From contig JAHBVL010000012.1 of the NCBI GenBank assembly GCA_019637585.1, positions 1 through 64,000 of the forward strand: DNA of 64,000 nucleotides, read 5' to 3'. How positions within the stretch are numbered: the first letter of the stretch is position 1; each line of letters begins with the position of its first letter. Made by a program: the position numbers and the translations under genes. Shown here piece by piece: positions 56,297 to 61,208 of the stretch. The notes beneath the pieces were generated by a model. That model saw nothing but the letters and a program-made list of their open reading frames with translations, was not told where the DNA came from and searched no databases. This stretch comes from Thermomicrobiales bacterium (GTDB lineage: Bacteria > Chloroflexota > Chloroflexia > Thermomicrobiales > UBA6265).

Positions 56297-56430
56297 CTAT
56301 CCACAGTTCCGCGAGACCCGCCCGGCCGTAAACGGACCGGGCTCACAGTGCGAAGGTCCTCCGGACCACAAATCCAGCCCCGCAGGGGCATCGCATTGTG
56401 AGCGGCGCCGTTTCACGGCGCTGCGGGCGT
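56297..56430. repeat. Dispersed palindromic repeat, copy B
   Basis: This copy matches 26790-26940 in order and orientation: CAGTTCCGCGAGACC, a CCCGGCCG...CCGGG hairpin, GGGCTCACAGTGCGAAGGTC, CCAGCCCCGC and a GGCGCCG...CGGCGC hairpin. The two copies are nearly 30 kb apart. No gene is coded. Confidence 0.8.
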
Positions 56431-56454
56431 ATGGACCGCTCTGGGGTTACCTAT

Positions 56455-56811
56455 CGGTCGCTGGGGTTGCGGTTGGCAACGCAGGCGTTGCCGCTACACC
56501 TGAACCGGGGCCACTCTGTGCGCGGCGCGGCCGCACCGGTGTAGCGGCGAGGCCTGCCTCGCCCATCGGTCGCCGGGGTTGCGGTTGGCGACGCAGGCGT
56601 CGCCGCTACACCTGAACCGGGGCCGCTCTGTGCGTGACGCGGCCGCATCGCTGTAGCGGCGAGGCAGGCCTCGCCCGTCGGTCGCCGGGGTTGCGGTGGG
56701 CAACGCAGGCGTTGCCGCTACCCGTCGCGGCGGTGTTGGGTGTAGCGGCGGGGCCTGCCTCGCCCATCGGTCGCCGGGGTTGCGGTTGGCGACGCAGGCG
56801 TCGCCGCTACA
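56455..56811. repeat. Degenerate tandem array of palindromic units, period about 112
   Basis: CGGTCGC-GGGGTTGCGG words recur at 56455, 56567, 56679 and 56768, so the spacing is 112, 112 and 89 bases. Each unit contains GGCGACGCAGGCGTCGCC and GGCGAGGC-CTGCCTCGCC, both self-complementary. The whole gap from 56242 to 56820 is repeat DNA with no supported gene. Confidence 0.85.
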
Positions 56812-56820
56812 CCGGCCATC

Positions 56821-58995: not shown

Positions 58996-60027
58996 CTACT
59001 CCTCACCCTCTCCACCACCGGCGTCTTCGCCGCCGATTGCCAGCACGGCTTCCGCCGCTTCATCCCCGGCCTCGCCGGTCCCTTCATCATCTCCCTCGGT
59101 CATGTAGCCATGCTGCACGAGGGTGTCTTTGAGTTCCGTGAACGAACTGGGGCCGAAATTGCGAATCGACATCAGCTGCTCTTTTTCCATGGTCAGCACC
59201 TGGCCGACCTTGTCGATACCGCGGCTGCGCAACGCGTTCAGTACGCGGGGCGACAGGCCAAGCTCGGCCAGCGGTTTGAACATGACCTCGTCCGGCCATG
59301 GGGACGCCGCCGTTTCGGCGCCTGCGGCTCCAACCGAGTTGAACTCGGCGAAGACACGGGCATGCTCCACCAGAATCTGCGCCGCTTCGGAGAGCGCGTC
59401 ATCCGGCTCGACGGTGCCGTCGGTCAGAATCTCGAGAATCAGGCTGTCGAAGTCGGTCATCTGGCCAACGCGCGTGTGCTCCACGACGTAGTTGACCTTC
59501 TGCACCGGCGTGTAGATGGCGTCGATGGGAATCTCGCCGAGGGCGAAGGTTTCCTGGTTCTCAGCGGCGCGATAACCACGCCCCCGGTTGATCCAGATGT
59601 CCATGTCCAGCACGGCGTCCGGCGAGGTCAGCGTCGCGATCGGCTGGTCGGGGTTGATGATGTCGACTTCCGTCGGCCAACCCACATCGCCGGCAGTCAC
59701 GACGCGTTCGCCCGAGGCATCACCCTTTACGTAGAGGTGCCCACGCGCATAGCCATTCAGCTCCATCGCGCGGCGAAGCCGTACTTTTTTCAGGTTGAGA
59801 ACGATTTCGGTAACGTCCTCGCGGACGTTGTCGATGGTGGCGAACTCGTGCCAGACCCCCTCGATGCGGATGCGCGGAATCGCGACGCCTTCGAGAGAGC
59901 GCAGGAGAATGCGCCGCAGCGAGTTGCCCAGGGTCGTGCCGTATCCCGGTTCGAGTGGCTCGACCCGGTATCGCCCGTAGTTCAACCCCTCGGCGACGGT
60001 CTCAATGGTGAATCCCGGTCGCTCCAA
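58996..60027 (-). CDS. rpoA: RNA polymerase alpha subunit
   Basis: A 343-residue alpha subunit. The N-terminal dimer domain has YGTTLGNSLRRILLRSLEG near residue 30. The C-terminal domain near 245-310 has the ELGLSPRVLNALRSRGIDKVGQV helices that bind UP elements and activators. The tail is acidic and Gly-rich. The start is TTG with AAGGAGG upstream. It usually follows rpsD; here a vestige of rpsD lies upstream. Confidence 0.97.
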   Translation of the reverse strand: MERPGFTIETVAEGLNYGRYRVEPLEPGYGTTLGNSLRRILLRSLEGVAIPRIRIEGVWHEFATIDNVREDVTEIVLNLKKVRLRRAMELNGYARGHLYVKGDASGERVVTAGDVGWPTEVDIINPDQPIATLTSPDAVLDMDIWINRGRGYRAAENQETFALGEIPIDAIYTPVQKVNYVVEHTRVGQMTDFDSLILEILTDGTVEPDDALSEAAQILVEHARVFAEFNSVGAAGAETAASPWPDEVMFKPLAELGLSPRVLNALRSRGIDKVGQVLTMEKEQLMSIRNFGPSSFTELKDTLVQHGYMTEGDDEGTGEAGDEAAEAVLAIGGEDAGGGEGEE

Positions 60028-60112
60028 TGGTTTTTGCCTCCTTCACCCGCCGATGCCCCGGTACTGATGACCGAGGCAACGCGGCGTGTTTTTCACTACT
60101 CGACCGGTCGGA

Positions 60113-60148
60113 CTAGCGGCTGTAGTACTCGACGTTGAGTGCTGACGT
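60113..60148 (-). pseudogene. Vestige of rpsD (3' end of ribosomal protein S4 gene)
   Basis: Between rpsK and rpoA, exactly where rpsD normally lies, the minus strand reads ...ALNVEYYSR followed by TAG. VEYYSR (or VEFYSR) at the very C-terminus is the hallmark of S4. Upstream, the frame runs without S4 similarity back to the rpsK stop. The body of the gene appears to have been deleted, leaving about ten codons. A working rpsD must be elsewhere, as S4 is essential. Confidence 0.65.
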
Positions 60149-60196
60149 GTGTGTGACGTGACGCAGAATGATCCGGCCGCTCAGATCACCCCGAAA

Positions 60197-60610
60197 TTAG
60201 ACGCGGCGCCGCTTGGGTGGCCGGCAACCGTTGTGTGGAATCGGTGTGCGGTCGGTGATGGAGATGACCTGCACCCCGGCCGATTGCAGCGCCCGGATCG
60301 CCATTTCGCGACCAGACCCCGGTCCCTTCACATAGACATCGACCTGGCGCAGACCGTGCTCCATCGCCCGCCGGGCAGCCGCTTCCGCGGTTACCTGAGC
60401 GGCGTATGGGGTGCTCTTCCGCGAACCCTTGAACCCGTTCGATCCCGCGCTCGACCAGGAAATGACATTTCCGGACGGATCAGTCAGCGTGACGATCGTG
60501 TTGTTGAAGGTCGCGAGAATGAAACCCTTGCCGCGAGGGATGTTTTTCCGGTCTCGACGCCGAATTCGCGTCTTGCCTTTTGCCTGTCCGCTGCGCCGTC
60601 GCTCAGACAT
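60197..60610 (-). CDS. rpsK: 30S ribosomal protein S11
   Basis: A 137-residue S11 with [21 protein letters not shown] near residue 27 and the C-terminal [18 protein letters not shown] tail. It is followed by the rpsD vestige rather than rpsD. Confidence 0.97.
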
Positions 60611-61094: not shown

Positions 61095-61208
61095 CTACCC
61101 TTGCCGCTGCTTGTGCTTCGGATTCGAACAAATCACACGGATGACACCGTGCCGACGAATGATCCGGCAGCGATCGCATCGCCTTTTTACTGATGCCGCG
61201 ACTTTCAT
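61095..61208 (-). CDS. rpmJ: 50S ribosomal protein L36
   Basis: A 37-codon minus-strand frame begins [15 protein letters not shown] and ends NPKHKQRQG. The Cys-Cys-Cys-His zinc site of L36 is clear. It is too short for usual frame cutoffs. It opens the rpmJ-rpsM-rpsK-rpoA-rplQ run. The usual infA is not between it and map. Confidence 0.95.

Follow-up and report, generated by a model that had tools for sequence, protein, structure and literature searches.

A probable remnant of a displaced rpsD between rpsK and rpoA in a Thermomicrobiales genome

Results

An rpsD remnant upstream of rpoA

The window analysed here is a stretch of 64,000 nucleotides from a Thermomicrobiales genome of 3.94 Mb (G000), whose alpha operon lies on contig C4. 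On the minus strand, rpsK and rpoA are separated by a gap of about 168 bp (60028-60196), which translates in the rpsK frame as FRGDLSGRIILRHVTHTSALNVEYYSR followed by a stop. The gap holds a degenerate 3' end of rpsD, made up of two blocks that flank a scrambled middle (Table 1). An in-frame ATG, GTG or TTG is absent before the relic stop, so that the fragment is not an open reading frame; with no start codon and with most of the reading frame missing, it has lost the status of a gene. The recognisable sequence amounts to 45 nt only. A search of the gap for a sigma-70 type promoter found none. Around the rpoA ribosome-binding site, many relatives (for example at loci L024, L017 and L025) share GGAGGCGAGTCCGCTTG, which reaches past the Shine-Dalgarno sequence; G000 has GGAGGCAAAAACCATTG there. 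Elsewhere in the window, downstream of rpsI, a palindromic repeat of 75 nt occurs four times within positions 56426-56813, at spacings of 112, 112 and 89 nt; the copies resemble interspersed palindromes of the REP/BIME type and yield false open reading frames in several frames.

Table 1 Features of the rpsK-rpoA region, in window coordinates
Feature	Position	Strand	Remarks
rpsK (uS11)	60197..60610	-	Upstream of the lost rpsD; NCBIfam TIGR03632, 187.6 bits
rpsK stop codon	60197-60199	-	
rpsD fossil, whole	60113..60184	-	Matched by nhmmer and PSSM to the 19 intact rpsD genes of the family; probably the degenerate 3' end of a former operonic C+ S4 gene
Upstream block LSGRI, CTGAGCGGCCGGATC	60170..60184	-	18.3 bits; 0/5000 shuffles; 0/600 random window stretches
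Scrambled middle	60143..60169	-	27 nt, 48 nt in intact genes; GTCAC-rich
Tail block ALNVEYYSR and stop TAG	60113..60142	-	26/30 to family consensus
rpoA	58996..60027	-	Downstream gene; TTG start after AAGGAGG; NCBIfam TIGR02027, 296.7 bits

The earlier note on this DNA, made from its letters, had proposed a fossil of rpsD in the place where that gene belongs. The slot is indeed that of rpsD: across 32 genomes of the family (Thermomicrobiales, Chloroflexota), 19 have an S4 gene between rpsK and rpoA. Four N-terminal cysteines mark these operonic proteins as C+ type, except in G010, which has lost them, and the intact genes end in ...LSGRVLNLPARDQIEVPxFNEALIVEHYSR and a stop. A DNA profile built from the last 93 nt of the 19 intact genes gave the tail 17.1 bits in nhmmer, the top match in the whole window (runner-up, 7.0), and the best of 5,000 dinucleotide shuffles of the gap reached 8.9 bits, so that none attained the score of the relic. 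The tail agrees with the family consensus about as well as intact genes do (23-29/30). Upstream of it, LSGRI matches the LSGR(V/I) of intact family genes, and the relic thus shows both their LSGR and their ALxVEYYSR block; slightly more of the gene survives than the earlier note allowed when it called everything but the tail gone. Between the blocks, profile positions 15-45 gave no fit to the scrambled middle (p = 0.72).

Chance resemblance in a random gap would be conceivable for so short a tail, given that the C-terminus of S4 is a common motif. The shuffles and the window-wide scan led us to reject it: the tail is the best match in 64 kb, it is accompanied by a second block, it lies on the expected strand, in the expected order and at the expected distance from rpoA, and an rpsD relic occurs in the sister genus as well. 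We therefore give chance next to no credence and conclude that the gap carries a real rpsD remnant. From the relic stop to the GNxLRR motif of rpoA the distance is 181 nt, compared with 137-231 nt in intact family genes (one at 374); together with the shared strand and the rpsK and rpoA flanks, this family-typical spacing places the relic where an operonic rpsD would be.

The working S4 gene is of another type

The only S4 gene of G000, which NCBIfam recognises as a full S4, lies on contig C12 outside the alpha operon. Its product lacks all four zinc-binding cysteines that operonic relatives possess. The published criteria for the C-(IV) type (PMC3087516) are absence of the seven-residue indel of C+ proteins, Leu or Phe at residue 15 and Gly or Pro at residue 21; by our reading of the sequences against these criteria, the contig C12 protein can be assigned to C-(IV): its N-terminus is shorter, RALG replaces RREG and residue 21 is Pro. 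A tree of 69 S4 proteins separated the 31 operonic ones, without exception, from the solo S4s (support 99/89) and united the solo S4s of G000, G002, G019, G001, G007, G003, G021 and G026 in one clade (100/99). The nearest rows outside this clade belong to Kapabacteria and Bacteroidota (support 87/84), a weakly resolved donor lineage that may lie outside the phylum. No shared flanks of the solo rpsD were found between G000 and G002. L36 (rpmJ, 61095-61208) and S14 (rpsN in L098) retain their zinc cysteines; the absence of zinc ligands in S4 thus does not belong to a wider loss among the ribosomal proteins looked at.

These properties bear on whether rpsD was moved or replaced, alternatives that the earlier note had left side by side. 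A move of rpsD itself from the operon to contig C12, leaving its tail behind, would account for the single S4 gene elsewhere in the genome and for the similar protein endings (ALNVEYYSR in the relic, HLVVEYYSR in the genome's own S4). Yet the gene on contig C12 is zinc-free and does not group with any operonic S4 of the order; its last Ser-Arg codons are TCT CGG, whereas the relic has AGC CGC, as operonic genes do. Moreover, a relative, G007, possesses both genes. We therefore rejected a move as very improbable. The ending of the relic does resemble that of the genome's own S4, as had been anticipated, but the operonic type fits it better: the relic tail scored 38.1 bits against operonic ends and 22.3 bits against solo ends, and LSGRI likewise fits the operonic type better. 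Because the contig C12 gene is of another type outside the operonic clade and the relic fits operonic ends, we conclude that rpsD did not move but was replaced, another S4 gene now serving in its stead. Most probably, the relic is what is left of the zinc-ribbon (C+) rpsD that originally stood in the alpha operon and was displaced by a zinc-free S4, a reading to which we assign a probability of about 0.88.

Relatives span intact, coexisting, broken and empty states

The relatives' gaps do not differ at random, which, according to the earlier note, would have counted against a fossil. In the sister genome G002, the gap at the same place contains its own rpsD relic, PQFTEALIVEYSCR followed by a stop, which scored 22.8 bits with the same profile; G000 and G002 represent sister genera with support of 100/100 in a species tree of 19 proteins. 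G007 carries a C+ rpsD in the operon and a C- rpsD elsewhere. In nine further, more distant genomes with a gap (G001, G004, G006, G019, G020, G021, G026, G029 and G030), the profile gave at most 1.9 bits. None of these nine holds a convincing relic; we left out a weak AGCGGCAAGAT-like match in G021 and G026 (p 0.03-0.05 before correction) and a weak tail match in G006 (p 0.03). On the 19-protein species tree, the state 'relic' requires one change and the state 'lost without relic' at least five, with gains and regains counted alike.

Zinc-free S4 has arisen in this order in other ways too. G030 and the genera g30 and g31 of another family carry a zinc-free S4 unlike that of G000, which indicates that replacement occurred more than once. 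This different lineage comprises the solo rpsD genes of G030 (L068), G045/G050/G053 and G046/G060; it provides the sole S4 in some genomes and stands beside an operonic C+ gene in others. In G010 (L027) and G036 (L089), the operonic rpsD has kept its slot while its zinc-binding cysteines are gone; G023, the sister of G010, retains all four. Cysteine loss in place is thus a second route to zinc-free S4 within the same order.

One loss or two

Four-fold degenerate sites of rpoA, rpsK, rpsM and rplQ are 44% identical between G000 and G002, with 33% expected at random. The two relic tails are nonetheless identical at 23/30 nt (p about 3e-4 under 44%). At 39/45 positions, the agreement of the G000 blocks with the family consensus falls within the range of functional genes (34-40/45), although blocks recognised through good preservation bias this comparison towards little decay. 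Because the blocks have barely decayed while synonymous sites are near saturation, either recent, separate losses or selection is indicated, and we favour separate, fairly recent losses in the two lineages. The dating compares sister genera, and the deletion date is accordingly coarse.

Alternatively, rpsD may have been lost once, in the common ancestor of G000 and G002, and both lineages would then have inherited the relic passively. This would fit two sister genomes whose gaps each hold a relic of the rpsD 3' end and whose solo S4s belong to the same clade. Against this, neutral DNA of such age would be expected to be near-random, which neither the 23/30 identity of the tails nor the undecayed G000 blocks suggests. 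The recognisable extents are also unequal: LSGRI was recognised in G000 alone, and no LSG block in the G002 gap was significant. A common deletion breakpoint could not be demonstrated, and breakpoints cannot settle the choice between one loss and two. On balance we consider a single loss unlikely, though it keeps appreciable weight.

Is the tail under selection?

The alternative to recent loss is that the tail has been kept under selection as a cis element, RNA or DNA, for the expression of rpoA, in which case the seeming fossil would be a retained regulatory sequence. Apart from the similarity of the two tails at their level of four-fold identity, this idea draws on the intact genes, in which synonymous conservation within rpsD peaks at the last 8 codons (rank 1/170 in the family and 2/148 in other families) and, of 18 gene ends compared in the cluster, that of rpsD is the most conserved. 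The case for a uniquely constrained tail, strong at first, weakened once serine was excluded and genome sets were made equal, since other windows of the cluster then score as high. In other orders of the class these codons are variable; the exception, the AGC serine, counts little because it is hard to change synonymously. Nine genomes have lost rpsD without any such tail, LSGRI is equally undecayed although it lies outside the tail, and a conserved spacer element sought after the stop was not found. Retention as a cis element is therefore improbable, and a more specific version, in which rpoA needs a nucleotide-level element overlapping the rpsD 3' end and the deletion stopped there, is a shade less probable again. 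A remnant of the displaced C+ gene that is passively decaying remains our preferred interpretation.

Autoregulation by S4

It had further been suggested that the deletion freed the operon from S4 autoregulation. S4 regulation has been described in E. coli and B. subtilis (PMC10931766), and candidate S4 leaders have been listed in Bacteroidia, Clostridia, Flavobacteria and Fusobacteriales (PMC7247131). Searches with the Rfam S4 leader returned no match at E <= 1 in the G000 operon or at its solo rpsD locus, nor did four sampled relatives whose operonic rpsD is intact give one at the gathering score. Earlier S4 autoregulation of this operon, and with it the suggested release, thus finds no support; a leader of an undescribed kind is possible.

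Discussion

The remnant, its position and the distribution of S4 types suggest a sequence of events. An ancestor within the family would have carried a second rpsD, of the zinc-free C-(IV) type, outside the operon; it was most likely gained horizontally, as judged from the tree and not from flanking genes. With both copies present, as they are in G007, the operonic gene may have become dispensable. A deletion of some 600-700 bp, beginning just past the rpsK stop and ending near codon -30, could then have removed most of it and left the last rpsD codons behind upstream of rpoA. Having no start codon, the remnant is untranslated, and it is most simply regarded as decaying DNA. In the G000 and G002 lineages, the final step seems to have been taken separately and fairly recently.

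Together, these data make visible in DNA a swap that was formerly inferred from gene trees. Among the Thermomicrobiales, the operonic gene is intact in some genomes, accompanied by a solo gene in others, and elsewhere freshly broken or deleted without trace, with several separate losses. The order thus provides a natural series in which to ask for what reason rpsD leaves the alpha operon. The review section on rpsD separation treats that reason as an open question and describes no remnant (PMC10931766, 2024). A word search of open-access papers returned no report of a surviving remnant of a displaced C+ gene, which is not proof of priority.

Three known systems invite comparison. The separated rpsD of Bacilli (B. 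subtilis) and Alphaproteobacteria resembles the G000 arrangement, with rpsM-rpsK-rpoA-rplQ lacking rpsD and rpsD elsewhere; as covered in that review section, the separation there is fixed in whole classes, and the solo rpsD of B. subtilis has an autoregulatory leader (PMC10931766), whereas no known leader was found at the solo rpsD of G000. The loss of zinc ligands within the operon, giving the C-(I) to C-(III) types (PMC3087516), likewise results in a zinc-free S4 and is seen in G010 and G036; in those types the operonic gene mutates in place, whereas in G000 it was replaced and deleted. The closest counterpart is path B of Chen, Roberts and Luthey-Schulten (2009; PMC3087516), in which a C-(IV) gene arrives by horizontal transfer, coexists with the C+ gene and the latter is then lost. 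The G000 replacement matches this path: a C-(IV) S4 is the sole copy and lies outside the alpha operon, the original C+ gene is gone from the operon, and related genomes have both copies. It differs in that the loss was there deduced from trees and gene order and called likely ancient, in a text in which the word pseudogene does not occur, whereas here two sister genera retain a physical remnant of the C+ gene and appear to have lost that gene recently. The kind of event was thus already known from gene trees, and the physical intermediate is the new part.
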